A stretch of DNA of 64,000 nucleotides from a virus (IMGVR_UViG_3300044998_001342:1-64000); one strand, 5' to 3'; positions 1,060 to 57,557 are shown, numbered from the stretch's first letter. Numbers and translations: made by a program. Notes: generated by a model not told the origin, from the sequence alone.

Positions 1060-2895
1060 CTACCATTCGCTGCGCGACCAGTCGTTCGCCACGTGCATCT
1101 CGATCTCTTCGATGGCGACCTCTTCGCGGACACGCGCGGCGGCCTCCTCGGTCGAGACCTCCTGGATGGGCGCGATGATGTCGGGTCGTCGGTGATCGAA
1201 GAAGCTCACGATCATCGTGTAGAGGATCGAGTGGAAGGTGTCGTCGGGGATGCTGCGTGGCTTGTCGTACTTGATCATGCGCAGCGTGTCCGAGTACTCG
1301 GCGTGGATGCTGAGCAGGTCCTCGGCGTAGGGGGCCTTGAAGACCTCCCACGACGGCAGCCGGATCTTCATCGTCTTGATCGCCGAGAAGATGTCCGCCA
1401 TCACCGCCGTGCGGAAGACGAGCGACCGGTTCAGGGCTGCCTTGTAGACGATCTTCTTCGGCGCTCGGGCGGCGTACTGGAACTGGAAGATCTTCTTGGC
1501 CGAGAAGATGCTGGTGAGCTTCTTGTTCTGCACGAAGCCCATGCCGTAGTCGCAGCCGACGTACTTCAGGCGGAACCGGTTGATGAGCCGGATGATCTCC
1601 TTCATCTGCGGCTCGGGGTCCGTGAGCAAGCCGTCGAAGCGCTTGGCGTAGAGGATCTGGAAGCTGCTGTCCCCACGGACGTACCCGCCCACCGTCATGA
1701 CGGTGTAGGCGTTCTCGCCGGTGCCCCAGTCGATCCCGCCGTAGAGCTGGTGCGACTTCGCCAGCTCTGCGACCTGCTCCTCGTCCATCATGTACGTGTC
1801 GGTCTCGTCGCACGCCCGGGCCACCTCACCGCGCGTCAGCGGCTTCGTTCCGCTGTCGTACGAGATCGCCATGACCTCGTTCATGAACTGAGCGGTGGGA
1901 TAGGTCTCCAGGGTGTGGATGATCGACTTCCACGCCTTGTACGGGTCCTTGTCGGTGAAGTCCGGCTTGAAGTACCAGGGCACCATCAGACGGCAGATGC
2001 GGTAGCCCTCGACGGTCGCGCCGGGGTTCATCGCCACCCACTGCGCCTGCGGATGTTCGGGGTTGATCGCGTGCCCACAGCGCTCGCAGATGGGCCCCTT
2101 CTTCCCGATGTTCTTCGGCCCCAGCACGATCCAGTGGCAGGGGGTGTGGTGCTCGCACGGAACTACCCATTCGGACATGGTCGACTGCTTTCCCCAGATC
2201 CCCTCGATCGAGTTGTCGAACGTCTTCGGCGTACCCGAGTAGACGTGCAGCGCGTTGCGGAAGCGCGACGCGGACTCACGGATGACGGGGATGACGTCCT
2301 TCAGGAGGTCCTGCACCTCGTCGTAGAAGATGCTGCTGACCGAGATACCGCGGATACGATCAGCGTTGAGGAACGCGTACCGCAGGTAGATCTTCGACTG
2401 GGTGAGGAACTCCTTCTCCAGGATGTTCCAGGTCAGGCTCTTGTGGGTGAGCGCCTTGACCATCGGGCTGATCTCGACGATGTCGTCGATACGCGCCGAG
2501 CTGAAGACCTTCGTCTGCGTCGCCGAGGGGGTGACGAACAGAGCGTTCTGGTACCAGTTCATCCCGCAGAGCGCGATCAGCTTGTTGCCTAGCGTCGTCG
2601 ACTTCTCGGTCTGGCGGCTGGTCATGAAGAGGATCTCGCGCGCCTCGGTGTCGTACGGCCGCAGCAGGTAGCGCCGCTCATCGAACACCATGGGCGAGAC
2701 CCGCCCCCGGTCGCCGTCCTTCACCCGCACCATGTGGGAGGTCCACTGGGAGGTGCGCAGCGCGATCTGCGCCGGCGACCGAGCCGCCCGGGCAGCGCTG
2801 GTGGCGAACGGATCATCGACGTATCTTTGCTTCGAGCGGTCCCCACCCTCGAAGGAGCTGTAGTCGATGTCGGCGAAGATGGGTCTCGATGCCAT
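1060..2895 (-). CDS. terL: Terminase large subunit (packaging ATPase-nuclease)
   Basis: A 611-residue motor protein that pumps DNA into proheads and cuts the concatemer. The ATPase domain has a Walker A of the T4 gp17 kind (TSRQTEKST, residues 92-100), a Walker B ending in SSIFYDE (about 187-193) and a coupling motif SGTPKT (about 220-225). A four-cysteine site (C247, C253, C270, C273) sits between the ATPase and nuclease domains and probably binds zinc. The RNase H-like nuclease has GGIDWG (D389), GCDYG (D449) and an Asp pair near 551. It is the last gene of the RNA polymerase operon, and a terminator hairpin lies beyond its stop. The start at 2895 has no clear ribosome site, and a rightward frame overlaps its 5' end, so the true start could lie slightly downstream. 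Confidence 0.92.
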   Translation of the reverse strand: MASRPIFADIDYSSFEGGDRSKQRYVDDPFATSAARAARSPAQIALRTSQWTSHMVRVKDGDRGRVSPMVFDERRYLLRPYDTEAREILFMTSRQTEKSTTLGNKLIALCGMNWYQNALFVTPSATQTKVFSSARIDDIVEISPMVKALTHKSLTWNILEKEFLTQSKIYLRYAFLNADRIRGISVSSIFYDEVQDLLKDVIPVIRESASRFRNALHVYSGTPKTFDNSIEGIWGKQSTMSEWVVPCEHHTPCHWIVLGPKNIGKKGPICERCGHAINPEHPQAQWVAMNPGATVEGYRICRLMVPWYFKPDFTDKDPYKAWKSIIHTLETYPTAQFMNEVMAISYDSGTKPLTRGEVARACDETDTYMMDEEQVAELAKSHQLYGGIDWGTGENAYTVMTVGGYVRGDSSFQILYAKRFDGLLTDPEPQMKEIIRLINRFRLKYVGCDYGMGFVQNKKLTSIFSAKKIFQFQYAARAPKKIVYKAALNRSLVFRTAVMADIFSAIKTMKIRLPSWEVFKAPYAEDLLSIHAEYSDTLRMIKYDKPRSIPDDTFHSILYTMIVSFFDHRRPDIIAPIQEVSTEEAAARVREEVAIEEIEMHVANDWSRSEW

Positions 2896-3488: not shown

Positions 3489-4423
3489 GCGATCTCCTTG
3501 TCTTCGGGCTGGACCTCGGGGACTTCCTCGAAGTCTTCGGGCTTCACGTCGATGACGGCAGGTGCCAGAGCAGGCAGCTCCTTCACCGACGTCATCCGAC
3601 TAGGATCGTACAGCGTCTGGATCTTGCGGAACTCTTCGAGCAGATCCGCCGAGCCGCCGCGATGCTTGGTCAGCTCCTCGTCGGCCATCTTCACCATGTT
3701 GAACGCCATGAACGCGCCCTGCGTGCGCTGAAGCGAGGGACGCGTCTGGAGTAGCGCGTGCTCCATGAAGAGCGAGAAGCCGTGGTCTCGGAACGCCGAG
3801 TACTGGACGACCGGGCTCAGGCTCTCCGCGCTGCGGTCCACGAGCGCCAGGGTGAGCGCAGCGCCGGCGGGGCTTCGCGGAGATCCCAGCGCCCCGAGGT
3901 AGTCGTTGTTGTTCTCGTCGGGGAGCCAGCGCGTGATCAGGGTCCGCCACTCCGCCGAGCTGAGCGCGCTGATGTTCCAGAAGTAGTGCGCGTACGCGTT
4001 GATCACACGCACGTTCATCACCGACTCGTCGAAGCCGAACCGGTTCTTCACCCGGGCCGCGATGGCGGTGGGGCTGATGGGGCCGAGGAGCAGGGCCTCG
4101 ATCATGCGGCGGACCACGGGCTCGCTGAGGATGTCGATGGCGAGACCCACGAAGGGGTCCTTCCGCCACATGTCCCCGATCTGCCAGTGGTTGAGGAAGC
4201 GGATCGTGTCGGGGTTCATCTGCTCGGCCAGCGGGTCGAACCCCGGAGGGATCTCCATCTCCTGGCGAGCACGCACCATCCGCCGGATGAACTTCACCAG
4301 CTCGGTGTCGAGCTGGGGCAGAGGCATGCGGAGATCGTCGAGGTGGGTGACCACGTCCGACGTGGTCATCCCCCTCTTCGAGAACAGGTAGTAGATGTAG
4401 TGGCGAGCGGGGTGTCGGAGCAT
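3485..4423 (-). CDS. Unidentified helical protein in packaging operon
   Basis: A 312-residue protein beginning MLRHPARHYIYYLFSKRG; ATG 4423 overlaps the previous stop (ATGA). It is mostly alpha-helical and rich in Arg, Leu and Glu. The central part reads AAIAARVKNRFGFDE, reminiscent of a helix-turn-helix, followed by an aromatic segment with Tyr-Ala-His-Tyr-Phe-Trp. The C-terminus is a disordered acidic tail (EEVPEVQPEDKEIA). It lies two genes before the large terminase in transcription order, where a small terminase or DNA-recognition factor would fit, but no family is recognised. Confidence 0.75.
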   Translation of the reverse strand: MLRHPARHYIYYLFSKRGMTTSDVVTHLDDLRMPLPQLDTELVKFIRRMVRARQEMEIPPGFDPLAEQMNPDTIRFLNHWQIGDMWRKDPFVGLAIDILSEPVVRRMIEALLLGPISPTAIAARVKNRFGFDESVMNVRVINAYAHYFWNISALSSAEWRTLITRWLPDENNNDYLGALGSPRSPAGAALTLALVDRSAESLSPVVQYSAFRDHGFSLFMEHALLQTRPSLQRTQGAFMAFNMVKMADEELTKHRGGSADLLEEFRKIQTLYDPSRMTSVKELPALAPAVIDVKPEDFEEVPEVQPEDKEIA

Positions 4424-6504
4424 CAGCGACCTGCCGATGCACCCTCCTGGACGTCGCGCAGCGCGAGCGCCTTGAGACCCTGGATCACCTCGTCGAGGGC
4501 GCGCGCCGCTCGTGCCGCCGCGAACTCCGGGATCTCCGTGAGCCCGAGGCGGCTGCCGAGCACCAGCTCGCAGACCTTCGAGAGGCACTTCTCCAGGTAG
4601 GGGATGCTGCTGATGAACGTGCGCACGTTCTCGGAGTTGATGAAGCCGAGCGACAGGACGGCGTCGACGGTCATCGCATCCGGGAGCGCTGCGGCCTCCT
4701 TCACGAGGTAACGGCGCAGGGCCATCACCTCGCGGCTGCGGTCGGAGGCGGTCTTGCGGGTCTGTTCGATGAGATCGGTCGCGAGACGCACGTCGTGCAG
4801 GCCGAGCACCTCGACGGTGTGGCCCATGGCGGCGGCTGCGATCTTGGTGTGGGCGATCTTGGCGGGCGCTCCGGCGAGGCAGAGCAGGAAGGCCGCCGAG
4901 TCGTGGGTGAGACGGGAGTTCGTGACGCTTGCGAGCTTGGGCATCCCCTGGAAGCGCACCGACACCTCGTCGGCGTCGCCTCCGAACAGCGTGATCGTGG
5001 GCCGCGTCATGTCCGCGGCGGTCTTCGAGATGCCGCTGACGTCCGAGACGAGCGGCACCATGGTCTCCTCGTTGAGCGGGAGGAACTTCGCCCCCGCCGG
5101 CATGTGGAACTCGCCCTTGAGGACGACCATCTTCGCCAGGCCGGGCACCAGGCGGATCCGAGTCTCCTCGCCGGTGAGGCTGCGGACGAGGAACGACGAG
5201 CCGCCGCTCATCCCCTCCTCGGAACCCTGCACGAGCACCGGCACGGTGCCCTGCACCCCGCCCTGGCCCGAGCAGTAGAAGATCCCGGTGCCCTTCGCCG
5301 GACCGCTCGGCAGGTCCACGCCGGCCGCGACGTGTGCGCCGACGATCTGGTCCTGGACCATCGCCGCCGCGCCGTTGGTGAACACGGACATCGGCACGAA
5401 GGTGCCGTCGAGATCGACGAGGTTCGGGATGACCCAGCCGACCTGCTCCTTGCCGTGGACCGTCTTCACCTTGTAGATGCCGGGCTTGTCGACGATCGCC
5501 CACTTCGAGGCGTCGAGCTGGATCTCGGTGGCCTTGACCGGCGTGGGACTGACGGTCACGACCCCCTCAGTGTCGACCTTCGACACGACCTCGGCGCCGG
5601 CGAACTTGAGCGCCTCGGCGCGGCCCATGAACACCGGGCGGGGCGCGCTGAACGCCGACCGGCTGGCCATCTTGACCCAGTAGCGGCCCTGGGCGTCGTC
5701 GTAGCCCATCTGGATGACGTCCGGCCGGGCCGAGACGCTCGCGGACTTCAGGAGCCCGCTGGCGTCGCGCAGGGCGGTCTTCTCGGCCTCCGCCAGGACG
5801 CGAGCGGCCCCGAACAGCGCCGAGTTGGTGTCGACCATCACGTCGGCGACGCCGGGCACGCTGGCCGCCTTGGCGACCTCCTCGATGTCCGGCGCGAACA
5901 TCGTGCTCGCCAGCGCCTTCAGCAGGACATAGTCCGCGCTGAGCTTCATGCCGGGGCCCTGGATGAACGTGACGGCGCCCTGGGTGCCGCCGATGCCCTG
6001 CGAGATGCCGGCGCCGAAGTCGTTGTCGGAGCGGCCCGGCGGGTAGAACTGGTTCCAGAGCGAGGTGTCGCCCCAGTCCTCGGTGATCATCTCGAAGGTC
6101 TCCGGCCGGAACAGCGCCTCGCGCAGCGTGTGGCCGTTCAGCGGGAGCATGCGCCCCGAGCGGAGCATGATCAGATCGAGGGGGCAGAGCGTGTGGTTCT
6201 TGATGACGACCGGCACGAGGACACGCTTGCTCGTCGGACCGGTGCGGGCGATCGACAGCGAACTGTCGGTGGCGTTCTCGATCACGATCACGCCGAGCCC
6301 GTAGCCCTGCTCCTCGTCGACCTTCATCATCTCGACGCGGGGCGTGTAGTCGCTCGTCTCGGGGGTCGTGCGGAACAGCTCCGTGAGGATCTGCCGCGGC
6401 CACGACTCGGTGTCCTCGTCGAGCTGAGCCGACGCAGCCTTCGTGGCCGAGGCCGGAGGGAACGTGAGCTGGGGCTTGCTGACGAAGAGATCCATGGCGG
6501 TCAT
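4423..6504 (-). CDS. Large unidentified virion-type protein (693 aa)
   Basis: A 693-residue protein between the baseplate spike and a packaging-side protein. It is beta-rich in the middle, with Gly-rich turns and alternating hydrophobics, and helical at the end. Several short Lys-x-Ala-Ser/Ala motifs occur along its length (KAASA, KAASV, KSASV, KLASV, KTASD). Comparable motifs appear in the proteins starting at 24973 and 7640. ATG 6504 lies 11 bases after the spike stop. No catalytic motif or known fold is evident. Size, composition and position favour a structural or virion-associated role. Confidence 0.8.
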   Translation of the reverse strand: MTAMDLFVSKPQLTFPPASATKAASAQLDEDTESWPRQILTELFRTTPETSDYTPRVEMMKVDEEQGYGLGVIVIENATDSSLSIARTGPTSKRVLVPVVIKNHTLCPLDLIMLRSGRMLPLNGHTLREALFRPETFEMITEDWGDTSLWNQFYPPGRSDNDFGAGISQGIGGTQGAVTFIQGPGMKLSADYVLLKALASTMFAPDIEEVAKAASVPGVADVMVDTNSALFGAARVLAEAEKTALRDASGLLKSASVSARPDVIQMGYDDAQGRYWVKMASRSAFSAPRPVFMGRAEALKFAGAEVVSKVDTEGVVTVSPTPVKATEIQLDASKWAIVDKPGIYKVKTVHGKEQVGWVIPNLVDLDGTFVPMSVFTNGAAAMVQDQIVGAHVAAGVDLPSGPAKGTGIFYCSGQGGVQGTVPVLVQGSEEGMSGGSSFLVRSLTGEETRIRLVPGLAKMVVLKGEFHMPAGAKFLPLNEETMVPLVSDVSGISKTAADMTRPTITLFGGDADEVSVRFQGMPKLASVTNSRLTHDSAAFLLCLAGAPAKIAHTKIAAAAMGHTVEVLGLHDVRLATDLIEQTRKTASDRSREVMALRRYLVKEAAALPDAMTVDAVLSLGFINSENVRTFISSIPYLEKCLSKVCELVLGSRLGLTEIPEFAAARAARALDEVIQGLKALALRDVQEGASAGR

Positions 6505-6515
6505 GGTACCACACC

Positions 6516-7640
6516 TTACTCCAGGAACACCTTCCTGGACAGAATCGTCTGGAGGGCTGCGACGAACGCCGGGGAGGGCGTCGCCTGGTTCGTCGTGGGA
6601 TCCACGATGAACATCGCGGTGCTCAGCACCTGCACCAGCTCGCGGCCGAGAACGGCGGGATCGCTGGCGCTACGGCTGGCGAGCTTCACCATGAGGCCGG
6701 CGAGGACGGCGCTCTGGCTCGCGATGAGTTCGATCTTGCCGTTCGCCGTGGTGACGTCGTCGCCGGTGATGTCGGTGGTTCGGCTGCCGTCGATGGTCAG
6801 CTCGTCGTTCCCCTTCACGTGGACGCTGCGGTCTGCCCCGATGATCTCGGCGAAGTTGCCCCCCGTGGTGATGACCATCGAGTACTTCTCGTTCTCGACG
6901 CTGCCGTCATCCCGATCGATGCCCTGCGGAGCGATGTGCACCTGCCACGCCGCCTTGTCGCTGCCGCCCAGCGGCATGTGCTGGATGCGCACCGTGGCCT
7001 TCGCGTCCTGGGCGAACTCGTTGAGGTGGAACGTGTACGTCGCGGGTGCGTCGCCCGAAGGATCGTCCTCCTGACGACCCACGGTCCACGACACGTCGCC
7101 GCCGAACGTGTGCATCTCGTAGTTCTCGGCGAAGTCCTTGATGAAGTTCAAGACGGGGATGTAGACGCGCTGGGAGATCGGCGTGGCACCGATCTGTAGG
7201 ACACCGCCGCGCCGCAGGATGATGAAGTTCTCGTCTCGGGTGGTGAACGCGATGTCGCCCGGGTTGAGCTGCGGGCGGCGCGAGCGGAAGCTGGCGTCGG
7301 TGTCCGAGCCTTCGGCAGCCACGGTGGAGCGCTCGGGGGCGCCATCCGTGCTCTGCTCCACGCTCGCCGCCCCGAGGTAGCCCATGACGAACGGCGGCGT
7401 GTTGTCGTTCGGCCAGCCGACGAGGCAGATCGCGCCGACCTCGGGAAGGTGGTGAATGCCCTCGCCGTTGGCGTAGTGGTGGTACGGCACGAGGACCTGG
7501 ATATCCTCGATCGTCTTGGCGGTGTGGCGCGACTCGGCCGTGACCGTGAACGTCTTGCGGTTGACGTTCGTGATCGTGCACTCCTCGCACCGGAAGTGCG
7601 AGAAGCGGTTGTGGGACGGCGATCCAGTGGTCCGTGCCAT
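6516..7640 (-). CDS. Baseplate central spike protein, gp5/VgrG/gpV-like
   Basis: A 374-residue protein whose N-terminal part looks like the OB fold of phage spike proteins: a stretch around residues 50-88 with VPYHHYANGEG, PEVGAICLVGWPN and PPFVMGYLG fits the usual pattern of a strand, a conserved Gly and G-x-x-V/I-x-V. The second half is repetitive and beta-rich (VHVKGNDELTIDGSRT, TDITGDDV), as in the triple beta-helix of spikes. Such trimers cap the tail tube and pierce the outer envelope of the host. No lysozyme domain is visible. Its ATG overlaps the RNA polymerase stop (ATGA), so the two are translationally coupled. Confidence 0.82.
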   Translation of the reverse strand: MARTTGSPSHNRFSHFRCEECTITNVNRKTFTVTAESRHTAKTIEDIQVLVPYHHYANGEGIHHLPEVGAICLVGWPNDNTPPFVMGYLGAASVEQSTDGAPERSTVAAEGSDTDASFRSRRPQLNPGDIAFTTRDENFIILRRGGVLQIGATPISQRVYIPVLNFIKDFAENYEMHTFGGDVSWTVGRQEDDPSGDAPATYTFHLNEFAQDAKATVRIQHMPLGGSDKAAWQVHIAPQGIDRDDGSVENEKYSMVITTGGNFAEIIGADRSVHVKGNDELTIDGSRTTDITGDDVTTANGKIELIASQSAVLAGLMVKLASRSASDPAVLGRELVQVLSTAMFIVDPTTNQATPSPAFVAALQTILSRKVFLE

Positions 7641-10600
7641 CAGCGTGCAGCGGTGCCGAACGGGCGAGCGTCGGCGGGCGCGCCGACCGTCACACCGACG
7701 GCGAGAGCGGGGATGGGGTGTCGTCCGGTCACGTCCGACTTGTGGCCGTGCTGGATGCCGCGCAGGACGCTCTGGCCGATGCGCTCGCCCTGAAGGCGCG
7801 CGATCCAGTCCTCCTGCCGGCGCAGCGGGATCATCTTCGTGGGCAGCAGCATCGGCTGGTACTTCACCGCCTCCTTGCCCTTGAGGACGCCGCGGTTGAT
7901 CTCGTCGAGCACCGACTTCTGGACGTAGTCGCCACGGACGTAGCCGTCGTGGTCTCCGGGATCGGTGACCCGCACGACGCCCGTGGCGTTCCGAACCGCC
8001 AGCTCGACGTGACGACGAAGCACACCCTCACGGCCGTAGATGGTACCGATCTTGTCGACCATGTGAGCCTGGACGGCGTCGAGACCCTTCGTCGCCAGGA
8101 GATCGTGGATGTTCGGGTCGCCTGCGGTGAGCGTGTCGCCGCGCTTCACCTCGGTGCCCGGCTTCACGTGCGGGAGCGGCTTCTGCCGGGTCTTCACCTT
8201 GCCGCGCTCGAACTGGATGACCCAGTCGCCCGCCTTGCTCTGGTGGACACCGACGATCTTGCCGTTGTTGGGAGCCAGGGCTGCGTCCTCGCGCCCCCGC
8301 TTCGCGGCGTCGAAGAGACGCTGCACGTCGCTGAACTCCGAGACGCTGTGGCCGGCCGTGGACACGATACCGCCGCCGTGCGTTTGCTTCAGCATGAGCT
8401 GCGCCGCTCGCTCACCGAGCGCCTGGGCCGCCACGATGCCGACGTTCTCACCGAGGTGATACTCCTTGCCGCTGGGGTGCACGCCCATGCACTTCGAGCA
8501 GACGCCCTGCGGCATCCGGCACTTCAGCGGACTGTGGACGACGAGCTGATCGACACCCTTCTCCTTGGCCTTCGACAGCACGTCTGGAGTGACGACCGTG
8601 CCGGCCTTGAACAGGTGGTCGCCGATCTTCACGTCGCTGGCGAGGTGCCGATCCACGATGTCCTTGTGGGTCACCGGCATCGACATCCCGTGGGTCGTTC
8701 CGCAGTCGGCCGAGGTGATCGGCTGGTCGATGTTCGCCTGCACGAGCAGCTTGCTCATGTAGCCGGGCTCGCGCACCGAGTCGGTCTTCTGGATGACGCC
8801 GCGACGCGCGCCGGCGGCCTGGAGGAAGTAGCCGCCGAGGTCGATGCCCTCGGCGAAGCTCTTCGTGATCGGCACCTTCGAGGGGGTGCCGAGGTGATCC
8901 TCGACCAGCATGGGGGCCATGATGAGCCCCTGGAACTGCTCGCGCTTCGCCTTGATGCCGGAGCCCAGCGGCGCCGGTGCCATGTCCGAGACGTTCGTGG
9001 GCTTGCCCTTGAGCACGTCGTTGTAGACGTCGTGGATCTTCCGGGTCGCCCGGAGCCAAGCCTCGGTCGTCTCTGCGGCGTCCGCGCCGCGCGCCTTCAT
9101 CGCCGCGACCTCCTTGGTGGCGTCGGCGATGATCTTGTCGCGGTGCTCACGCAGCGGCTCGATGTCCTTCAGCCCGACGGTGTGGCCCGACTCGTAGGCC
9201 ATCTTGAAGCCCAGCCGGCTCATCCCGTCGACGGTCTCGACGAAGTGCTTCGGCATGTTCTTCGCGACGTCCTTCAGGATGCTTTCCTGGACCTTGCGAT
9301 CGAACGGCTTGTCGAGCTTGGTGAGGACGTCGGAACGGAACTTCTCCGGCAGGACTTCGGCGATGCGGAGCCGTCCGAGCGTGGTGTCGCCCACGCCCTT
9401 CACGTGGATCTGCTGGTTGAGGTGGATGCGGTTCGAGCGGAACAGCGCCTCCGCCTCGTCCTTGTCCTTCAGCGCCCCCTGGTGCTTCCCGCGGGGGATC
9501 GACATGCGGTAGAGGCTGAGGGCCGACTCGTTCGCCGGCGAGAACAGCACGTCGCCCGAGCTGTCGCTGAGCGTGCGCTGCGACGGCATGATGCGCTTCG
9601 CCTCTTCGATCGCCTCCTGGGTGAGGGGGACCATCAGCGCCACGGTGTCGCCGTCGATGTCGCCGCCGAGCGGCGGCAGGATGAGCGGGCTCACCTTGAT
9701 CGCCGGGTCGTCGGTGAGCTTCGCCCGCTGGGCGACGAGACCGTACTGGTGCAGCACGGGGTCGCGCTTCATCAGGACGGGACGGTGCTGGACCTCCTGC
9801 TCCAGAGCCTTGATGGCGATGGGGTCCTTGCGGCTGATCATCTTCTGCGCCTCGTCCGGCCGGATGCGGGCCTGGACGAGGCGGCGCGCCACCATCGGGC
9901 GCATCAGCTCGATGGCAATCTTCTTCGGCAGACCAATCTCGTCCACCGACAGGTTCGGGTCCACGACGATGGTCGCACGGGACGTGTAGTCCTGCTTCTT
10001 CGCGATCATCTTGTCCTGGAAGAACCCGTCCTTCGGCTGGTCACCCGAGATCATGTGGATGATGCCGGGCAGCGTCTTGTCGGGATCTTCCTTCGTGCCG
10101 CGCATGTCGAGGTCGAGCGCCTTCTTCCCCTTCGGCGTGGTGCCGAAGAGGTTCGACAGCTCCTGGTAGAGACCGGCGCGCGCATCGAGCGTGTTGTTGT
10201 AGGGAACCTTGCCCTCGCCCTTCTTGAGCGACTCGTTCACCATGCCGAGACGCTTGTAGAGCGCGTTGAGGGGGTTGTTCTTGATCGTCCCGTCCGGCAG
10301 CGTGGCCTGCGGGCGGAACACGGGCGGCAGCACCGGCACGGCCTTGATGGTCCAGGCCTCGTCGAGCCGCTTGCCGGCGTCCTTCACGGTCTTCAGCGCG
10401 CGGTACTTGAAGTGCAGCTTGTCGAGCTGCGCGCCCTTCACCTTGGGATCCTTCAGCGCCGCGGCCGTCGCCTTCATCTCCTTGTCGATGTCGATCGACT
10501 TCAGAGCGTCGCGGAACGCCTTGCCGCCGATCTCTCCGTTCGGCAGCTTCGCCTTCCCCTCGATGATCTTGGGGATGTCGGTCTCCTTGATGCCGAGCGT

Positions 10601-13600
10601 GTGCGCGATGGCCCGGGCGTACACCGGGTTCGGCATCGGCTCGACCAGCTCGACGTGGCCCCAGTGCTGGCCCGCAGGACCGCCGGTGATGTTCGGGTCG
10701 AAGAGCCCGCCCTGCTCCGGCTTGTCGTCCTTGCCGCGGATGCTACGGGTGGGGCGCGTGATCTCGCCACGGCTCATGGCTCGCGTCTCGGCGTCGCTGC
10801 GCGGCATCAGGCGGATCTCAGCGCCCGACTTCTCGACGTTCACGCCGAGGCCCGTGAGCATCGACTCGAACTTCTTGAAGACGAACGGGATCTTCGGTGC
10901 CGGGATGCGCTCACCGTTCGCCAGCGCGCCCCAGACCTCACGGGCCTGCGGCTGGTCCGACTTCAGCGTCTGCATCTCGCGCAGGTTGTCCTTCAGGCCG
11001 GCGGCCAGCGCGGCGTAGATGCCAAGGCTGCCGAGGCTCTGCGCGCCGGTGTGGCCGCCACCGCGAGGGACACGCGTGTCGTTGTCGTAGTGGATCTTCG
11101 GCGCGTCGAACTGGAGCAGCTCGCTGCCGTAGCCGCCGGCGCGCACGTGCGTCTTCTTGTCGATCTGGTGTTCGAGCTGGAAGGCGTAGTGCGGACCGAC
11201 CATCACGTCGCCGAGCTTCCGGCCCGTCTTCGGGTCGTAGAGCGTCTCGGTGTCCTTCAGTCCGTGCTGCTTCAGCTCGTCCTGGATCTTCTTAAGGTAG
11301 TCGGTGCCTCCCTGGAAGTTGCGGACGAAGTACGGGCGTCCCGTCTTGTCCGCGATCTTCCCCGCGGCCGTCTCCAGGAGCTGGCCGGGGTTCATGCGTC
11401 CGGGCACGCTGACCGGGTTGATCAGCATCTCCACGGGCTTGCCCTTCTCGTCGTGGGGCATGTCCTTGTCGTCGATGATCTCCGTGACGATGCCCTTCGC
11501 ACTGTGGCGCGTGGAGATCTTCGAGCCGATCTGCGCCGGCTCCAGGGTCTTGAGGTGGACGACGACGTTCTTGCCGACGCGCTCCGCACGCACGACCTCG
11601 GCCTCGTAGTCGCCGTCCCAGACCATCGAGCTGTTCTGGTACTTGTTGCGGAGGCGCTTGCCGATCTTGTACTTCGCGTTGATGTCGGCGGTCCCGGGCA
11701 GCATGACCTCGCCGAGCGCCAGCACGAGCGGGTCGCCCGGCTTCACCTTCGTACCGGGCTTGACGATGCCGTCGTCACCGATCTTGTCGATGCGATCCTT
11801 CGAGTAGACCCCCGGCTTGCCGATCAGGAACTCCTTCTTCCCGAGCACGTGGGTGTCGGAGAGGAGCATGCTGGGCTTGTAGAGGTGCTCGGACGCCAAG
11901 CGGTCGGCGGCGCTTCGCGAGATGACGATGCCGTCCTCGTGGTTCGAGCCGTTGGCCAGGTACGCCACGCGCAGGTTCGCGCCCAGCGCGAGCGTGCCGT
12001 TCTTCGTGTAGTTGTTGTCCGCGACGATCTGCCCGGCTCGGACGCGGTCCCCCGGCTTCACCAGCGGCGAGCTGTGAAGCTGGCCCTTCGGATCGTTCGT
12101 TGGGTAGTGGTGATAGAGGTGAACCGAATGCGTCCCGTCCTTGCCCTGGATGACGATCTCGTCCTTCTTGATCTCCTTCACCACACCGTCCGCCTTGGCG
12201 CGGTGCGCGAGGAACCCGGAGCCCATGATCGCCTCGAACGACTTCCCGGCGCCGGCCTCGACCTGCACCTTGGGCGGCTCACGGCCGACCACCGAGATGG
12301 CCTGGGCCATGTGCCGAGCCGACATCGTCGAGCGTCCGGCGCTGTCGTTCTGCATGAACGGCACGAGGTTCGTCTCGACGGCGAAGACCTGCGCCGCGCT
12401 CGGCATCACGTAGTCGGCCGAGGAGAACGCGATGTCGTCGCGCATGTGGCCGCGGGAGTCCGACATCCGGACCGTCTTGCTGAGGGGCTTCGGCGTGCCC
12501 TTCTCCCACCGCACCTGGTCGGGGAGGACAACGTTCGAGACTGCCGCGGTCGCGGCGTCGACGTCCTCCATCTTCCCGGTCTTCGTGTTGTAGAGCCGGA
12601 CGTACGGCTTCCGATCCTTGATCGACACACCGAAGGTGAGGTGCGTGTTCACGCCGGCGTTCGACTCGGGCGTGAACACCGGGTCGAGGAAGCCGAGGTG
12701 CGACGGGTCGAGCGACGTGTTGCTCTTCGACAGCGCGTGCGGGTTCTGGATGCCGCCCGGTCCCGTGATCGTCACCATGGACCGGTCCGAGAGCATCGAG
12801 ACGGGGTTCGTCTGCTTCCCGTTCGCCGCCAGGGACGTCGTGAAGACGTGGTAGAGCGGGCGCTGGATGAGGTCGGGCATGAACACGTCGCGCAGGACGC
12901 TGTGGTCGCCCGACGCCAGACGACGCTGAACCGTGGGCTTCCCCAGCGCGCGCTGGATCCGAGACTCGATGTCGGGTGCGGCCTTGGCGATCCGATCGAC
13001 GAACTGGTCCTTCGCGGTCCACAGCTCCTTGTATCGGAGGCTGTCGATGGGGTCCGGATCCTTCCGCTTGGCGGCGACGTCCAGCAGCTTCTTCGACGCC
13101 TCGAAGAGCACGCTACCGTCGACCCGCTCGGACTTCACACCGACGTTGGCGTGCGCCACGACCGGATCGATGCGGGTGCCCTCGAAGATGGCCTTCGTCT
13201 CCAGGACCGGATCGGCCTTCTCCCCGAGCGGTTCCTTGCGCCAGGTCTCGTAGAGCGACTTGAGGTCGCGCGCGACGTTGGCCTTCTTGCGCGATGCCTC
13301 GTAGGCGTCGGCACCCCACGCCTTCTTCATCGCCTCGTCGTCGACGCCCATGGCGTTCAGAACGCTGTAGAGCGGGATCTTCCGCGACCCCAGCTTCATG
13401 TAGATCTCGCCACTGTCACCGGTCTGGAGATCGAAGCTGCGGCCCTTGGCGAGCTGGAACTGCGCCTCGAACTCGCCGGGCTTCTCGGTCGCCTTCACGT
13501 AGACGCCCGGACGCAGGCGCCACTGGTTCGCGATGAACTTCTCCGACCCGCCGATGATGTAGCTGTAGTGACGCGTCAGCTTCGGGATCTTGGCGACCGG

Positions 13601-13870
13601 CGAGTTCTTCTTGCTGACCAGCGTCTTCCCCGACGTGGTGTCGACGATCTCGATCGTTCCGACGACGGGAGCGGCCCACGACCGGCCCTCCATCTTCGCC
13701 TTGAACTGGTCCTTGATGTCGTCGACCCCGAGACGATCCTCGATCTTGAGGTCGCTCACGCGCACCTCGAACCGACCCGACCGGTCCTTCACCGGGAAAG
13801 TCTGGCCGATCTGCTGAAGGAGCTGATCCTTCAGTTCCTCGAACTGGTGGTGGGGGTCCGATGTCAGCAC
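7640..13870 (-). CDS. Single-chain RNA polymerase: beta and beta-prime fused
   Basis: A 2076-residue DNA-directed RNA polymerase. Beta-like motifs: NLRVAYLANGSNHEDGIVIS (about 632-651), KISTRHSAKGIVTEI (784-798), DMPHDEKGKPVEMLINP with VPGRMNPGQLLE (803-833) and GGGHTGAQSLGSLG (937-950). The beta end is near residue 1010. Beta-prime-like motifs: RSIRGKDDKPEQGGLF (1042-1057), KKQDYTSRATIVVDP (1291-1305), the active-site loop GGDIDGD (1402-1408; bases 9647-9667) with three Asp, a trigger-loop segment GARRGVIQKTDSVREPGYMS (1687-1706), a zinc site with C1723, C1784, C1791 and C1794, and GENVGIVAAQALGE (1807-1820). The four-Cys finger that normally follows GGLF in beta-prime is absent. GTG 13870 lies 6 bases after a -10 box, suggesting a leaderless message. 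No frameshift is seen. It probably transcribes late phage genes or is packaged; alpha, omega and sigma partners are not visible. Confidence 0.95.
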   Translation of the reverse strand: MLTSDPHHQFEELKDQLLQQIGQTFPVKDRSGRFEVRVSDLKIEDRLGVDDIKDQFKAKMEGRSWAAPVVGTIEIVDTTSGKTLVSKKNSPVAKIPKLTRHYSYIIGGSEKFIANQWRLRPGVYVKATEKPGEFEAQFQLAKGRSFDLQTGDSGEIYMKLGSRKIPLYSVLNAMGVDDEAMKKAWGADAYEASRKKANVARDLKSLYETWRKEPLGEKADPVLETKAIFEGTRIDPVVAHANVGVKSERVDGSVLFEASKKLLDVAAKRKDPDPIDSLRYKELWTAKDQFVDRIAKAAPDIESRIQRALGKPTVQRRLASGDHSVLRDVFMPDLIQRPLYHVFTTSLAANGKQTNPVSMLSDRSMVTITGPGGIQNPHALSKSNTSLDPSHLGFLDPVFTPESNAGVNTHLTFGVSIKDRKPYVRLYNTKTGKMEDVDAATAAVSNVVLPDQVRWEKGTPKPLSKTVRMSDSRGHMRDDIAFSSADYVMPSAAQVFAVETNLVPFMQNDSAGRSTMSARHMAQAISVVGREPPKVQVEAGAGKSFEAIMGSGFLAHRAKADGVVKEIKKDEIVIQGKDGTHSVHLYHHYPTNDPKGQLHSSPLVKPGDRVRAGQIVADNNYTKNGTLALGANLRVAYLANGSNHEDGIVISRSAADRLASEHLYKPSMLLSDTHVLGKKEFLIGKPGVYSKDRIDKIGDDGIVKPGTKVKPGDPLVLALGEVMLPGTADINAKYKIGKRLRNKYQNSSMVWDGDYEAEVVRAERVGKNVVVHLKTLEPAQIGSKISTRHSAKGIVTEIIDDKDMPHDEKGKPVEMLINPVSVPGRMNPGQLLETAAGKIADKTGRPYFVRNFQGGTDYLKKIQDELKQHGLKDTETLYDPKTGRKLGDVMVGPHYAFQLEHQIDKKTHVRAGGYGSELLQFDAPKIHYDNDTRVPRGGGHTGAQSLGSLGIYAALAAGLKDNLREMQTLKSDQPQAREVWGALANGERIPAPKIPFVFKKFESMLTGLGVNVEKSGAEIRLMPRSDAETRAMSRGEITRPTRSIRGKDDKPEQGGLFDPNITGGPAGQHWGHVELVEPMPNPVYARAIAHTLGIKETDIPKIIEGKAKLPNGEIGGKAFRDALKSIDIDKEMKATAAALKDPKVKGAQLDKLHFKYRALKTVKDAGKRLDEAWTIKAVPVLPPVFRPQATLPDGTIKNNPLNALYKRLGMVNESLKKGEGKVPYNNTLDARAGLYQELSNLFGTTPKGKKALDLDMRGTKEDPDKTLPGIIHMISGDQPKDGFFQDKMIAKKQDYTSRATIVVDPNLSVDEIGLPKKIAIELMRPMVARRLVQARIRPDEAQKMISRKDPIAIKALEQEVQHRPVLMKRDPVLHQYGLVAQRAKLTDDPAIKVSPLILPPLGGDIDGDTVALMVPLTQEAIEEAKRIMPSQRTLSDSSGDVLFSPANESALSLYRMSIPRGKHQGALKDKDEAEALFRSNRIHLNQQIHVKGVGDTTLGRLRIAEVLPEKFRSDVLTKLDKPFDRKVQESILKDVAKNMPKHFVETVDGMSRLGFKMAYESGHTVGLKDIEPLREHRDKIIADATKEVAAMKARGADAAETTEAWLRATRKIHDVYNDVLKGKPTNVSDMAPAPLGSGIKAKREQFQGLIMAPMLVEDHLGTPSKVPITKSFAEGIDLGGYFLQAAGARRGVIQKTDSVREPGYMSKLLVQANIDQPITSADCGTTHGMSMPVTHKDIVDRHLASDVKIGDHLFKAGTVVTPDVLSKAKEKGVDQLVVHSPLKCRMPQGVCSKCMGVHPSGKEYHLGENVGIVAAQALGERAAQLMLKQTHGGGIVSTAGHSVSEFSDVQRLFDAAKRGREDAALAPNNGKIVGVHQSKAGDWVIQFERGKVKTRQKPLPHVKPGTEVKRGDTLTAGDPNIHDLLATKGLDAVQAHMVDKIGTIYGREGVLRRHVELAVRNATGVVRVTDPGDHDGYVRGDYVQKSVLDEINRGVLKGKEAVKYQPMLLPTKMIPLRRQEDWIARLQGERIGQSVLRGIQHGHKSDVTGRHPIPALAVGVTVGAPADARPFGTAAR

Positions 13871-13876
13871 CCACGC

Positions 13877-13906
13877 AGTCTACCCGCGCCCTCGAATATG
13901 GGTCAA
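13877..13906 (-). promoter_or_regulatory. Leaderless-type promoter of the RNA polymerase operon
   Basis: On the minus strand, TTGACC (13906-13901), an 18-base spacer, TAGACT (13882-13877), then six bases to the GTG start. The same arrangement (TTGACC, N18, TACGCT, N6, ATG) precedes the 24973 gene. It resembles a sigma-70 promoter whose transcript would start at or very near the start codon. Confidence 0.65.
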
Positions 13907-13930
13907 CGCGAGCGTCCTCGCAGCTATCAG
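13901..13930 (+). promoter_or_regulatory. Candidate phage promoter P3 (CTATCAGC type)
   Basis: GGTCAA (13901-13906), 18 bases, TATCAG (13925-13930) in CTATCAGCAGG. It is followed by GTGGAGGA and the ATG at 13948. The GGTCAA hexamer is also the -35 box of the divergent RNA polymerase promoter, read on the other strand. Confidence 0.5.
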
Positions 13931-13947
13931 CAGGCGTGGAGGACCAG

Positions 13948-14088
13948 ATGCACGATCCCAACGAACAGACGAAGGAAGCCGAAGACCAGGACCAGTACGA
14001 GCACGACGACAGCCTGACCAGGTTCGAGAACGACCTGAACGAGGCGCTGGAGAAGTCCATCGAGGGCCTCTCGGAGGAACCCGGGTGA
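13948..14088 (+). CDS. Small acidic hypothetical protein
   Basis: A 46-residue acidic, probably helical protein (MHDPNEQTKEAEDQDQY at the start, ending SIEGLSEEPG). ATG 13948 has GGAGGA six bases upstream, so I prefer it over a longer frame starting at 13861. It is the first gene after promoter P3, and its stop overlaps the next GTG (GTGA). Function unknown. Confidence 0.65.
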   Translation: MHDPNEQTKEAEDQDQYEHDDSLTRFENDLNEALEKSIEGLSEEPG

Positions 14089-18461: not shown

Positions 18462-20384
18462 TCAGACGGCCCCTGCGCGGCGCGGAGGGAGCTGCTCGGG
18501 CATCGGGCGCATGTCGACCGCCGGAGGGGCCGGCATCGCGCCCTGGGAGCCGTCCTGGCCCGGCAGGACCGCCCCGGCCTCGGGCGGCATCATGAGCCCC
18601 TGCTGCGCCAGCAGCTCGCCCATCTCGGGGGCCTTCTGCTGGAGCTGCTGGAGGTACACCTTCTGCTGCTCGGGCGGCATCGTCTTGATCTTGTTCGCCA
18701 GAGCCGCCGCGACGGCGTCCATCGAGTAGCCGCCCGGCTGGGCTGCTGCGCTCTGACCCTGGATCTCGTCGAACGGCGTCCGCTTCGGCGCGGTCTCCTT
18801 CAGCATGCCCTTCTGCATCGCCGCCTGGGCTTGTGCCTGGTACTTGGCGATCACGAGCTGAGCCTCACCCTGGGCCTCGGCCTCGACGAGCGTCTTCTGT
18901 CGGAGCGCCTCCGCCTTGACCTTCGCCTCCTTGAGCATCAGCTCCGCCTCGTCCTCGACCTTGAGATCGGTGTACGAGAGCAGGGTGGCGTCGCTCACCT
19001 TCCCGAACTGGTTGAGCTGCATCATCATCGCCTGGCGCTGGAGATCGTCCGCCATGCGGAACGGCTTGAAGCGGCCCTGCGGCAGCGGCCAGTTCATGTA
19101 CGCGCCCATCCGCTTCAGCACCCAGTCGAGCAGGCGGTGATGGCCGAGCACGTTCGAGAGGAAGAAGTTCTCCAGCATGCGCATCGACACGCTGGTGCCG
19201 GCGTACGTGCCGTGACCGAAGACGAGATCGATGGGGAAGCCGAGGCCCGCCACCATGATCTCGTACATCTGCTGGATCTCCGGCATCAGCAGCAGGCTGC
19301 GCCCGTTCTCGCCGATGACCTGGTGACCGAGCGGGAACGGCAGGATGCCGTAGTAGCTGGGGTCGACGCGCTGGCGCGCCAGCTCGCGCCGGATGTGGTC
19401 TCGCCAGTTCGCGAGGTCCACCGTCGTGAACGGATCCGCGCCGGCGGTGGCCGGCTGCGGGAACAGGAAGATCTGCGGCACGAGGTGCGTGAGGAGCACG
19501 GCCTCCTGCGCCTTGCGCATCACCTGGATGTAGAAGGCATCCTTCAGCACCGGCATGAGCAGCGGGATGCCCCAGCCGCGCGACATCGTGGACAGCCCGG
19601 GCCTCCGCATGTGGAAGACCTCGGACTTGTCGAACACGAGCTGACGGTGCGTGCGGACGGCTTCGAGGAAGATCTCGGGTGTGGTCGCGACGAGATCCTT
19701 GCGGCCCATCATGACCTGCGCGCGGAAGTCCGGGCTGATGTCGAGCCCGTAGTCCATCCGGCCGGTGGCCTCGTTGTAGAAGATGTGGACGTACTCCGGG
19801 TTCCAGCGGATCAGACCGATCTCGCTGTACTTCGGATAGTAGTCGTCGCGGCTCCGAGCGAAGTCGGTCTGACCGCAGGTCGGGCACTGGAACCAGAACC
19901 GACCGCTGATGTAGCGCCAGCTCGGCCGGACGTTGAGGCAGTCGTGCTCTGCGCGGCACATGCTGTTGCCGCAGATCAGCTTCTTGCGGAACGGGAAGCT
20001 CGCGCTGAGGAACGCGTTGCCGTAGACGAAGTAGTCGAGGTTGATCTCGTACTGGTGGACGCGGTAGTTCATCACGCCCAGCAGCAGCTCCTCCCACCGC
20101 GAGCGGACGCCCTCGTCCTTGTGCTGGAGGATGAGATCGGTGACCGGGTACTCGGCGGCCTTGGTGACGACGGCGTTGATGATGCCGTGCGTCAGGAAGT
20201 AGAACCGACAGAACCCGAACAGTGCCTTGATCGACGGCGGCGTGTACGTGCTCGCCTGATCGAAGAAGGGGTTCGCGAAGGGCTGGTACCTACGGCCGAG
20301 GATCTCGCTGCGGTTCGCGTTGCCGCTCACCGCCATCCGACCACCCATGCCGAGGGCAGAACCTGAAACGCCGCTGAAGAACAT
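18462..20384 (-). CDS. Portal protein
   Basis: A 640-residue protein with portal-like features: an N-terminal helical region, a central domain with FDKSEVFHMRRP and GWGIPLLMPVLKDAFYIQ, a long helical stem and crown region, and a Gln/Ala/Met-rich disordered C-terminus. This fits the dodecameric ring through which DNA enters the head. An insertion carries C138, C143, C149, C167 and C170, probably a zinc knuckle, unusual for a portal. ATG 20384 has GGAGGG seven bases upstream and overlaps the previous stop (ATGA). It is the last gene of the head operon. Confidence 0.8.
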   Translation of the reverse strand: MFFSGVSGSALGMGGRMAVSGNANRSEILGRRYQPFANPFFDQASTYTPPSIKALFGFCRFYFLTHGIINAVVTKAAEYPVTDLILQHKDEGVRSRWEELLLGVMNYRVHQYEINLDYFVYGNAFLSASFPFRKKLICGNSMCRAEHDCLNVRPSWRYISGRFWFQCPTCGQTDFARSRDDYYPKYSEIGLIRWNPEYVHIFYNEATGRMDYGLDISPDFRAQVMMGRKDLVATTPEIFLEAVRTHRQLVFDKSEVFHMRRPGLSTMSRGWGIPLLMPVLKDAFYIQVMRKAQEAVLLTHLVPQIFLFPQPATAGADPFTTVDLANWRDHIRRELARQRVDPSYYGILPFPLGHQVIGENGRSLLLMPEIQQMYEIMVAGLGFPIDLVFGHGTYAGTSVSMRMLENFFLSNVLGHHRLLDWVLKRMGAYMNWPLPQGRFKPFRMADDLQRQAMMMQLNQFGKVSDATLLSYTDLKVEDEAELMLKEAKVKAEALRQKTLVEAEAQGEAQLVIAKYQAQAQAAMQKGMLKETAPKRTPFDEIQGQSAAAQPGGYSMDAVAAALANKIKTMPPEQQKVYLQQLQQKAPEMGELLAQQGLMMPPEAGAVLPGQDGSQGAMPAPPAVDMRPMPEQLPPRRAGAV

Positions 20385-45527: not shown

Positions 45528-47813
45528 TCAGCCTCCGATGCCGCCCGGTCCGATTCTGGTGTAGCGGACGACGTGCTTGAGGGCCCGCAGCCTGTCGCCC
45601 ACACGCTCACCACGAATGCGAATCGCGTAGTTGTTGGAGCCCAGGTTGATCAGCGTACCCGACCCGAGGCTGTGGCTGATGAAGCCCTCGCCCCAGACGC
45701 CGTTACCGAACGAGATCGAGGACTCGTTCGCGTTGGTGACACCAGGGGGATTGGCCGGAGTACCCCAGTTCGGGGTCGTGATCTGGAGAGCCGCGTAGAC
45801 CGTGTGGATGCTGCCCGCCGACGAGAACGACTGCGCATACGTCTGCATCAGTCGCCCGGTGAACATGATCGGGAAGTAGAGCGCAGAGTCGCCACCACCG
45901 CCCAGGGTGATCAGCTCCCACCAGCCGTTCGTGCGGTCGAACCTCCAGAGAGGATTCCCGGATGCGTCTTCCTCGGGGTAGCCGTTCCGCAGATCGACGT
46001 TGATCGTGCGATCGGTCTGTGCACACGTGATGAAGTAGTTACCGGAGACCGTCATCTGGTCACCGGTGACGTGACCAAGCGACGTGACGACGCCAACCGT
46101 TCGGATGTCACCATCCGCGTCGATCGACACCGCCTCTCCGAAGTTGTCACCGAGACCGGGAGCGGACGCGAACATCTTGATGAACGATCGCGTGCCTCCG
46201 CCGATGGTCTTGTCCGGCATGAACAGCGCGAGCGCCGCCGAATCCACCTCGGGACCGCCCGAGAGGACGTTGTGTGCGGTGACAGTCGCGCCGCTTCCGG
46301 AGAGGCCGAGAGCGTTGGGGAAGTTCACCTTCCGTCCGAGACCCGACGAGCTGTAGACGGCGTTGAGCGTGCACGTGCCCGCTGCCGGGAAGTGCGTCGG
46401 GACCGAGTTGTCGGCGCGACGCAGCAGGAAGCCCTGGTTACCGGACACGATGTGCTCGGCGACGTAGTAGAGCCCGTTGGCCGTGCTGGCTCCCGAAATC
46501 TCGACGAACATGCCGATGCCGAACAGGTAGAACGGCAGGTTCGCGCTCTGCGGCGCGTTGAAGAGCAACTCGCCGGTGACCGGCGAGTTCGCCGTGAACG
46601 TCATGGTCACGCCGGTCAGCGGCGTGATCGCGGGAACCACCGCGGGGTCGAACGGCACGAGGGACAGGAAGTCGTAACGATTCGAGATCGTGGAGTACGA
46701 CTGGAGGACGTGCCCGACTCCGGGGTTCGTGGCGTACTGCTTCCACGTGTAGTAACCGCCCATCCGGACGTTCTTGTCGACTTCGTCGATGATGTCCGAC
46801 GATCGATCGAGCAGTTGCTCCATCCGGCCCAGGTGATCGATCACCAGGCCCTCTTCGGTGGAGCCGTCGTTGTTCTTCCGCATCACCCGGAGAGCGCGAT
46901 CCGACCCACCGGCCGGGGTGTCGCTCTGGTTCCGCGCAGCGAGGACATCGAGGGCCGACGTGGCATCCGGCATGCCGACCGAGACCGCCGCCGAGAGTCG
47001 CGTGCGGTTCGTGAAGCTGCCGAACGTGCCGAAGCGGATCCGGTAGACCGTGATCGTGCACGCCTCGTTCGCGACGAACGCCGGCGCTCCACCGTCCAGG
47101 GTCTCCAGGATGGCGTCGGTGGTCAGGCCGCCGACGTTCGAGAAGATGTAGAGACCGTCGGAGCCTGCGGTGCCACTGATCTGGACGAGATCGTAGCCTC
47201 GCGCTAGATCCGTGTTGCCGCCGCTGTGGAACTGGCCGGCCGACAGCCGCACCGTGGTGGCCAGCGCGCCGCCCGGGTTCAGCGTGGCGACGTTCGAGTT
47301 CGTGAGCTGCGTCAGGCCGGTGGTCTTCGCGAACACCCGACGATCGAGCAGGCCGGCGATGGCGTCGAATCCGCTCTGGCCGCTCGCGCCGACGCGACGA
47401 GCGAGGAAGTCGAAGCCGACCGAGCCGCCGGCGGTGTCGCCGAGCGCGTTCGCCCGGAAGTGCGCGTTGTCCCGGACGGTGTCGCCCGACATCGCGCCCA
47501 CCGAGCTGACGGTCTCGACCGCGCCGGCGTCCTTCGTGATGTCGCGTCCTCCGCCGGACGGGCCCACGGTGCCGTTGTCGTAGGCGCCGTTGAGGCCGCC
47601 CACCTCGAACGAGGCGAGGCGGGCGTTGAGGTCCTCGTCGTTCAGGGCGAGCGCGTAGTGGGTCCGGTTCGCGATGGCCGCTGTGAGCTGCTCACCGAAC
47701 TGGATGCCCCGGTTCCCGGCGCTCGTGCCCGGAGGGTTCGTGGTGGAGTACGGAACGGCGGGACCGAAGCCGCCGCCGTCGCCGAACATCTCCTCCTTCG
47801 TCTTGATCGCCAT
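45528..47813 (-). CDS. Tail fibre or receptor-binding-type protein
   Basis: A 761-residue beta-rich protein, dominated by Gly, Ser, Thr and Asn with few charged residues. The N-terminal part contains NEDLNARLASFEVGGLNGAY-like segments near residue 60; long repeats of short strands follow, and a C-terminal domain ends in VGDRLRALKHVVRYTRIGP. The composition, lack of enzymatic motifs and place after tail and baseplate genes point to a fibre or tailspike-like adhesin. It is the gene most likely to determine host range in this window. Confidence 0.7.
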   Translation of the reverse strand: MAIKTKEEMFGDGGGFGPAVPYSTTNPPGTSAGNRGIQFGEQLTAAIANRTHYALALNDEDLNARLASFEVGGLNGAYDNGTVGPSGGGRDITKDAGAVETVSSVGAMSGDTVRDNAHFRANALGDTAGGSVGFDFLARRVGASGQSGFDAIAGLLDRRVFAKTTGLTQLTNSNVATLNPGGALATTVRLSAGQFHSGGNTDLARGYDLVQISGTAGSDGLYIFSNVGGLTTDAILETLDGGAPAFVANEACTITVYRIRFGTFGSFTNRTRLSAAVSVGMPDATSALDVLAARNQSDTPAGGSDRALRVMRKNNDGSTEEGLVIDHLGRMEQLLDRSSDIIDEVDKNVRMGGYYTWKQYATNPGVGHVLQSYSTISNRYDFLSLVPFDPAVVPAITPLTGVTMTFTANSPVTGELLFNAPQSANLPFYLFGIGMFVEISGASTANGLYYVAEHIVSGNQGFLLRRADNSVPTHFPAAGTCTLNAVYSSSGLGRKVNFPNALGLSGSGATVTAHNVLSGGPEVDSAALALFMPDKTIGGGTRSFIKMFASAPGLGDNFGEAVSIDADGDIRTVGVVTSLGHVTGDQMTVSGNYFITCAQTDRTINVDLRNGYPEEDASGNPLWRFDRTNGWWELITLGGGGDSALYFPIMFTGRLMQTYAQSFSSAGSIHTVYAALQITTPNWGTPANPPGVTNANESSISFGNGVWGEGFISHSLGSGTLINLGSNNYAIRIRGERVGDRLRALKHVVRYTRIGPGGIGG

Positions 47814-47835
47814 GTGTCAGCCTCGCTCGGGTTGC

Positions 47836-52193: not shown

Positions 52194-52221
52194 GTCGCTG
52201 TGCTATCGTACTCGTACCGCG

Positions 52222-56555: not shown

Positions 56556-56567
56556 GCGGGGATCCTA

Positions 56568-57209: not shown

Positions 57210-57210
57210 G

Positions 57211-57543: not shown

Positions 57544-57557
57544 CCCCGAACTCTACC

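Follow-up and report, generated by a model that had tools for sequence, protein, structure and literature searches.

Can the two large subunits of a bacterial-type RNA polymerase (RNAP) exist in a phage as one protein, and, if so, where does such an enzyme stand among known polymerases and when might it act? This question is raised by an open reading frame (ORF) in a 64,000-nucleotide stretch of viral DNA (IMGVR_UViG_3300044998_001342:1-64000), referred to here as the window. A first-pass annotation, made from the sequence alone, had proposed that positions 7640-13870 encode a single 2076-residue chain with beta and beta' motifs in order, and that the product is a phage enzyme representing a near-complete bacterial-like fusion. 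Both claims held. The ORF is exact, with 2076 codons and no internal stop, and carries the beta motifs SNHEDGIVIS, TRHSAKGIVTEI and VPGRMNPGQ followed by the beta' motifs QDYTSRATIVV, GGDIDGD and EN-VGIVAAQALGE; the second claim is supported by gene neighbors, Pfam and PDB matches, and mapping to the E. coli subunits. The window lies within a 64,434-base IMG/VR record and is 99.8% identical to positions 39616-103607 of a 171,909-base contig, and is therefore a fragment of a genome of ~172 kb or more. The gene and its parts are as follows.

7640-13870, minus strand: fused RNAP beta-beta' gene, 2076 aa, GTG start, TGA stop
10811-13870, minus strand: beta part, residues 1 to ~1020 (alignment to E. 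coli RpoB and structure model)
10736-10810, minus strand: beta/beta' joint, residues ~1021-1045, with no flexible linker and lacking the N-terminal zinc domain (ZBD1) of beta'
7643-10735, minus strand: beta' part, residues ~1046-2076 (Pfam, PDB search, E. coli mapping and structure model)
11930-11944, minus strand: beta NHEDG, in which E645 and D646 equal E. coli E813 and D814 (E. coli mapping)
10142-10291, minus strand: beta' clamp-helices region, residues 1194-1243 (E. coli mapping)
9647-9667, minus strand: beta' active-site GGDIDGD, residues 1402-1408, in which D1404, D1406 and D1408 equal E. coli D460, D462 and D464
8489-8704, minus strand: beta' second zinc site, C1723, C1784, C1791 and C1794, equal to E. 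coli C814, C888, C895 and C898
8363-8452, minus strand: bridge-helix/trigger-loop region, in which Q1824 and H1831 equal E. coli Q929 and H936

The matches of this ORF to beta and beta' are far above chance. In Pfam, the chain matches Rpb2_6 at residues 558-918 (E 2e-55), Rpb1_2 at 1355-1428 (2e-17), Rpb1_3 (2e-7) and Rpb1_5 at 1675-1840 (6e-19), and a phmmer search against PDB chains recovers beta' with E 3e-87. Two AlphaFold models were made, covering residues 1-1190 (mean pLDDT 83, pTM 0.68) and 880-2076 (84.5 and 0.82). The beta model (m111e750a17cd) has a TM score of about 0.66 with solved bacterial beta chains, and the beta' model (md10de7d02a06) scores 0.74-0.77 with solved bacterial beta' chains; Foldseek matches of the two halves to solved chains have E 8e-59 and 8e-67. 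Across the joint, pLDDT in the beta' model is about 83-96, with no floppy linker.

The main catalytic residues checked are intact. In beta, E645, D646, K784, K792, R825 and H901, corresponding to E. coli E813, D814, K1065, K1073, R1106 and H1237, are all kept. In beta', the DxDxD metal triad (D1404, D1406, D1408) is kept, and mapping to E. coli finds R425, D460, D462, D464, Q929, H936 and the second zinc site preserved. By its metal triad, beta catalytic residues and beta/beta' fold, the protein is a two-barrel RNAP of the cellular type, whose activity is inferred, and a bacterial-type RNAP thus has its two large subunits joined in one phage protein. The clamp-helices region, also recognizable, is the sigma-2 contact in bacteria. 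Some features depart from E. coli. G1402 occupies the position of N458, and without this usual contact the properties of the enzyme might differ from those of bacterial RNAP. Several rifampicin-pocket residues are altered (D516, H526, R529 and S531), so rifampicin resistance would be expected, an untested inference from sequence. Finally, ZBD1 (E. coli C70-C88) is not present in the chain according to the E. coli mapping.

Ten or more other distinct IMG/VR contigs encode the same full-length chain (about 2060-2080 aa), with the same gene order, at 52-83% identity. The closest named relatives are Salmonella phage Arash and Vibrio phages D69, D148 and D181, whose RNAPs (Gp206 plus Gp216 in Arash) have the ZBD1-less joint of the window chain and align with 97% of it at about 28% identity. 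They differ in their active site, AADYDGD, and in a beta' that stops after residue ~1490 (E. coli ~550-573) and continues in a second gene: Arash gp206 (1525 aa) comprises beta and beta' to residue ~1490, and gp216 (606 aa), ~5 kb downstream, is the remainder. RNAPs of the Arash type are numerous in IMG/VR. A scan of IMG/VR for NADFDGDxxM, combined with profile searches, found at least 17 further complete diverged chains of ~2000-2390 aa with full beta and beta', and many truncated fused chains besides; these counts are lower bounds.

ZBD1 is absent, and beta runs straight into beta', in every one of the 46 phage chains compared that are fused or share the joint, the Arash type among them. ZBD1 is present in bacterial beta', in the bacterial fusions L302, L262 and L278, and in the phage beta' of RHph_Y65, Carin-5 and Vibrio 1.031.O. 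One sister group has an extra chain break ~100 residues into beta', and the beta/beta' joint is intact in the broken-chain members examined. Among individual contigs, L043, L046, L047, L050, L052, L054 and L057 encode Arash-type RNAPs with the break ~100 residues into beta', seen as three pieces in contigs of sufficient length, and L041:7974-13489 has an Arash-type beta split at residue 517/518 with ~0.9 kb between the halves. A group of separate-subunit phage enzymes (L114, L162, L166, L199 and L227) also lacks ZBD1, a loss that is probably independent; L166 has a gp23-type capsid gene.

Searches outside these sets yielded little. With RHph_Y65 beta' as query, no relatives were found in IMG/VR, and GTDB genomes scanned with clade-specific peptides gave no match. 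A broader scan returned mostly bacterial rpoC, together with two fused phage-like chains, L228 (2079 aa) and L230 (2167 aa), in contigs of bacterial metagenome-assembled genomes (MAGs); this binning might point to hosts, and is too weak for assignment. Some unannotated "phage" records (for example, OR846602, OR844998 and OR847295) gave matches of ~26% identity and resemble bacterial rpoBC contamination. Bacterial MAG contigs L302 (Omnitrophota), L262 and L278 (Vermiphilus) carry ORFs of 2515-2610 aa in which beta and beta' are fused and ZBD1 is retained.

Phylogenies were inferred with FastTree (LG+gamma) from 905-910 beta' columns, without a site-heterogeneous model and without archaeal or eukaryotic sequences. 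In the beta' trees, the 48 fused-type phage tips form one clade with support 0.92, or 1.00 when the long-branched L126 is omitted, and the 19 bacteria fall in a separate clade; the fused phage clade is distinct from bacteria and their rpoB-rpoC fusions as well as from phage enzymes with separate subunits. In a tree built earlier from both beta and beta', L126 adjoins bacteria instead, which leaves its position unsettled. Fused chains bearing NADFDGD surround the window clade (support 1.00), and the Arash group forms a different branch. L127, an ORF with beta' alone, lies within the fused clade and is likely one more secondary break. The fusion is therefore not confined to the window lineage and belongs to a large, diverse phage clade, which amends the first-pass annotation. 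One old fusion followed by several breaks is the simplest reading, with the deep position unsettled given the limits of model and sampling.

How this enzyme relates to described systems was assessed system by system. The known polymerases cited in the first-pass annotation were correctly characterized: phiKZ-like enzymes are split, crAss-like and YonO-type enzymes are distant, and natural bacterial fusions exist. The RNAPs of jumbo phages phiKZ and AR9 share with the window and Arash enzymes the lack of alpha, one of their enzymes is packaged in virions, and the Arash-type break is, as in these phages, after the DPBB; they differ from the window chain in comprising several polypeptides and in being far more diverged (PMC7598289). 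The crAss-like gp66, YonO and P23-45 enzymes have two DPBB domains in one phage polypeptide, as does the window chain, and some are virion enzymes, but they are distant and show little similarity to cellular subunits (PMC10770324). Such high divergence is not met by the window chain, whose Pfam beta and beta' matches are strong. Bacterial rpoB-rpoC fusions have the same head-to-tail order of beta and beta', but keep ZBD1 and nest within bacteria, indicating independent origin.

Multisubunit-RNAP-encoding Caudovirales (mReC) have been described as having beta and beta' subunits, a required NADxDGD motif and a gp23-type capsid (Weinheimer and Aylward 2020, PMC7481178). As in the window chain, theirs are deep-branching tailed-phage beta and beta' that can be aligned with the bacterial enzyme. 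They differ, as described, in having subunits, NADxDGD and gp23, as opposed to one chain, GGDIDGD and a tree position apart from gp23-bearing contigs. The window protein does not meet the NADxDGD requirement, and one clade member, L014, has NADIDGD; most of the window clade would therefore be excluded. The gp23 capsid family (PF07068) was absent from nine window-clade records and 10 other fused-chain records, many of them fragments, and was found in two separate-subunit contigs. The mReC study itself reported MCPs for only 8 of its 97 contigs (PMC7481178). The window clade is separate from gp23-bearing contigs in our trees, which did not include published mReC sequences. Membership in mReC was set aside, as the capsid and motif tests were unmet and the tree position is apart from gp23 contigs, with the caveat that published mReC RNAPs were not in the tree.

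The first-pass annotation had also stated that, as far as it was aware, no tailed-phage lineage with such a fusion was described, and this held in part. In the open-access PMC literature searched, with subscription papers and preprints mostly outside its scope, no account of a tailed phage with a bacterial-like beta-beta' fusion came to light, but partly fused members have already been cultured or sequenced (Arash gp206 and D69/D148/D181), annotated merely as "beta subunit" or hypothetical. The one-chain bacterial-like core, the shared ZBD1-less joint and their wide spread therefore appear undescribed, as far as open-access literature can tell; the kind of enzyme, a two-barrel RNAP, is known.

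The surroundings of the gene bear on how the enzyme might be used. These gene classes depend on our own gene calls.

1060-2895, minus strand: terminase large subunit (TerL), phrog_675, E 5e-44
4423-6504, minus strand: conserved 693-aa protein in the same operon as RNAP (gene-order comparison), with no assigned function
6516-7640, minus strand: baseplate hub/spike-like gene, phrog_430, weak (E 5e-4), its start overlapping the RNAP stop (TGATG)
18462-20384, minus strand: portal protein, homologous to Arash gp204 portal, E 1.5e-71

Related contigs keep the order portal ... RNAP - baseplate-like - 693 aa - 131 aa - TerL, and the baseplate-like gene directly follows RNAP in all relatives compared. 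RNAP is thus encoded among structural genes, in a baseplate-TerL operon. Because TerL, portal, baseplate-like and DNA polymerase genes flank it, in contigs of up to 196 kb, the enzyme is that of a phage. Arash and the window phage have RNAP, portal, TerL, DNA polymerase and sigma homologues in common, and in neither was alpha found: the alpha family (PF01193), whose dimer is the assembly platform of cellular-type enzymes, was not detected in 11 phage records, some of them fragments, although 13 of 14 controls were detected. Elsewhere in the window, 45528-60155 (minus strand) encodes four very large proteins (761, 1242, 1341 and 865 aa) without PHROG match, the 1341-aa protein having a weak homologue in Arash. 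The protein best conserved between relative G001 and Arash is a 694-aa product of G001:127905-129989 (minus strand), 46% identical to its Arash counterpart and assigned to phrog_1735, of unknown function.

Two classes of promoter-like elements can be distinguished.

13877-13906, minus strand: host sigma70-like promoter TTGACC-N18-TAGACT, 6 nt before the GTG, in leaderless layout
13924-13930, plus strand: CTATCAG element belonging to the divergent gene that lies upstream of RNAP (motif scan)
299, 385, 25016, 32832, 38128, 40516, 42796 and 61504, plus strand: other CTATNAG copies (motif scan)

A TTGACC...TAGACT-type sequence ends 6-7 nt before the RNAP GTG, itself kept, in 12 of 12 clade members compared, so that the start is well defined. 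In G001 and G009, the site before RNAP is the only exact match to TTGACC-N18-TAGACT per genome. Similar host sigma70 promoters precede leaderless genes in high-GC bacteria. The leaderless layout might hint at a high-GC, possibly actinobacterial host, which we regard as a lead only. More generally, TANNNT ends exactly 6 nt before the start of six genes each in G001 and G009, versus 0-1 at most other distances, and sites of this class stand before RNAP, before the operon that leads to portal and before large genes of structural type. Sites in G001 are at 7289, 33272, 42149, 78632, 89735 and 131912 (8 nt before the start in the last), with equivalents in G009.

The second class, CTATNAG, has all nine of its window copies on the plus strand, mostly ahead of non-structural genes. 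In G001, 29 of 35 copies touch intergenic DNA, mostly 14-50 nt before a same-strand start, as do 16 of 24 in G009; intergenic DNA makes up only 6.5% of the G001 genome (6.5-6.8% across the two). CCTATNAG exceeds its reversed control in 7 of 7 other clade genomes tested; in Arash it does not, and CTATNAG is not enriched there. Throughout G001 and G009, CTATNAG is strongly enriched a short way upstream of non-structural genes; it has no evident -35 element and is kept across the whole clade. As sequence classes, the leaderless host-like elements of RNAP and structural operons and the CTATNAG elements of non-structural genes are shown.

A divergent sigma70-family homologue of Arash Gp10 is present in nine of nine clade genomes searched. 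In G001, which is 99.8% identical over the window, its gene lies just outside the window (G001:37944-38774), with a CTATNAG copy 16 nt before it. A clade sigma profile matches solved sigma factors with E 8e-11; NCBIfam sigma models match weakly, Pfam PF04542 and PF04545 are negative or weak in the clade, and the homologue was reached only through Arash gp10. In purified Arash virions, spectra were most numerous for Gp206 (3516), with 1210 for Gp216, 467 for sigma Gp10 and 1333 for the major capsid protein, and the authors allow either packaging or mere carry-over of abundant enzymes with particles (PMC10585845). Such spectral counts are not molar. Presence in virions is shown solely for the Arash homologues; for the window clade, without virion or expression data, it can be argued only by analogy.

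We propose that beta and beta' joined head to tail, at a joint placed where their ends adjoin in the bacterial enzyme, would form a one-chain core RNAP without ZBD1 and without alpha. Together with the divergent phage sigma encoded elsewhere, this core most likely constitutes a holoenzyme that reads CTATNAG before non-structural genes. The polymerase would probably be packaged with the sigma and ejected with the DNA, whereupon the holoenzyme would start early transcription at CTATNAG sites. The structural operons, with their host-like leaderless promoters, would then fall to host RNAP, and the polymerase would be remade with virion proteins, because its gene lies in the baseplate-TerL operon downstream of a leaderless promoter of host type. 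We favor this packaging reading by a modest margin. Packaging, holoenzyme formation and the pairing of polymerase to promoter class are all inferred, and several points could tell against it: Arash is only about 28% identical and no virion or expression data exist for the window clade; no host-type promoter in the genome is better than that of RNAP, so expression might instead be host-first, as in T7; and which polymerase uses CTATNAG, unenriched in Arash, is not shown.

The main rival, which remains possible and is not decided by the data, is an unpackaged, host-launched polymerase: host RNAP would transcribe the gene early from its strong TTGACC/TAGACT promoter, and the new enzyme with phage sigma would then read middle or late genes. 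In its favor, the near-consensus host-type promoter right before RNAP is conserved in 12 of 12 members and is the only exact match in two genomes, and in Arash the RNAP gene overlaps the preceding gene in the portal operon, leaving no room for such a separate site. Against it, the same leaderless class precedes structural-type operons, RNAP runs into baseplate and TerL genes, suggesting late expression, and the Arash homologue is abundant in virions.

The remaining alternatives question the fusion, its origin or its activity. An assembly artefact, or a pseudogene-like read-through of two adjacent genes, could be suspected in a single metagenomic contig, especially as high GC yields long spurious ORFs on the opposite strand; such an ORF (7634-14017, plus strand) does lie opposite RNAP, owing to 66% GC. 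Because the full-length chain recurs in many independent contigs, an assembly join of two genes is excluded; the diverged fused relatives, conserved joint residues and intact catalytic residues also leave this alternative practically no room. The first-pass annotation had named assembly error as a possible refutation, which thus failed, and the checks it suggested (profile searches, structure prediction, phylogeny and a search of metagenomic phages) all support a beta-beta' fusion recurring in phages. Recent capture of a bacterial rpoB-rpoC fusion of the Helicobacter, Omnitrophota or Babelota type is conceivable in that bacterial fused genes exist, three of them found here, but it is most improbable, since these nest in bacteria and keep ZBD1, whereas the phage chains form a separate clade without it (the tree did not include Helicobacter). 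An inactive or regulatory RNAP-like protein for host takeover might be argued from the change of N458 to G and the altered rifampicin pocket; conservation of the metal-binding and main catalytic residues across deep alignments makes this, too, a remote prospect.

Beyond the packaging reading lies a bolder one, toward which we are slightly more skeptical than accepting: a deep-branching, large clade derived from one ancient fusion with loss of ZBD1, re-broken at several sites, whose enzymes are ejected as a two-component holoenzyme reading its own CTATNAG early promoters. A natural one-chain core lacking both alpha and ZBD1 would rank with the simplest known RNAPs of bacterial type and could serve structural and in vitro work as a compact tool. 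It suggests one way to dispense with alpha, in which fusion would perform the assembly step. Because a relative, Arash, can be cultured, the claims about virion and holoenzyme are already open to test. Moreover, this would be one clade in which RNAP fusion and repeated re-splitting can be read from extant genomes, with bearing on the origin of split phage RNAPs.
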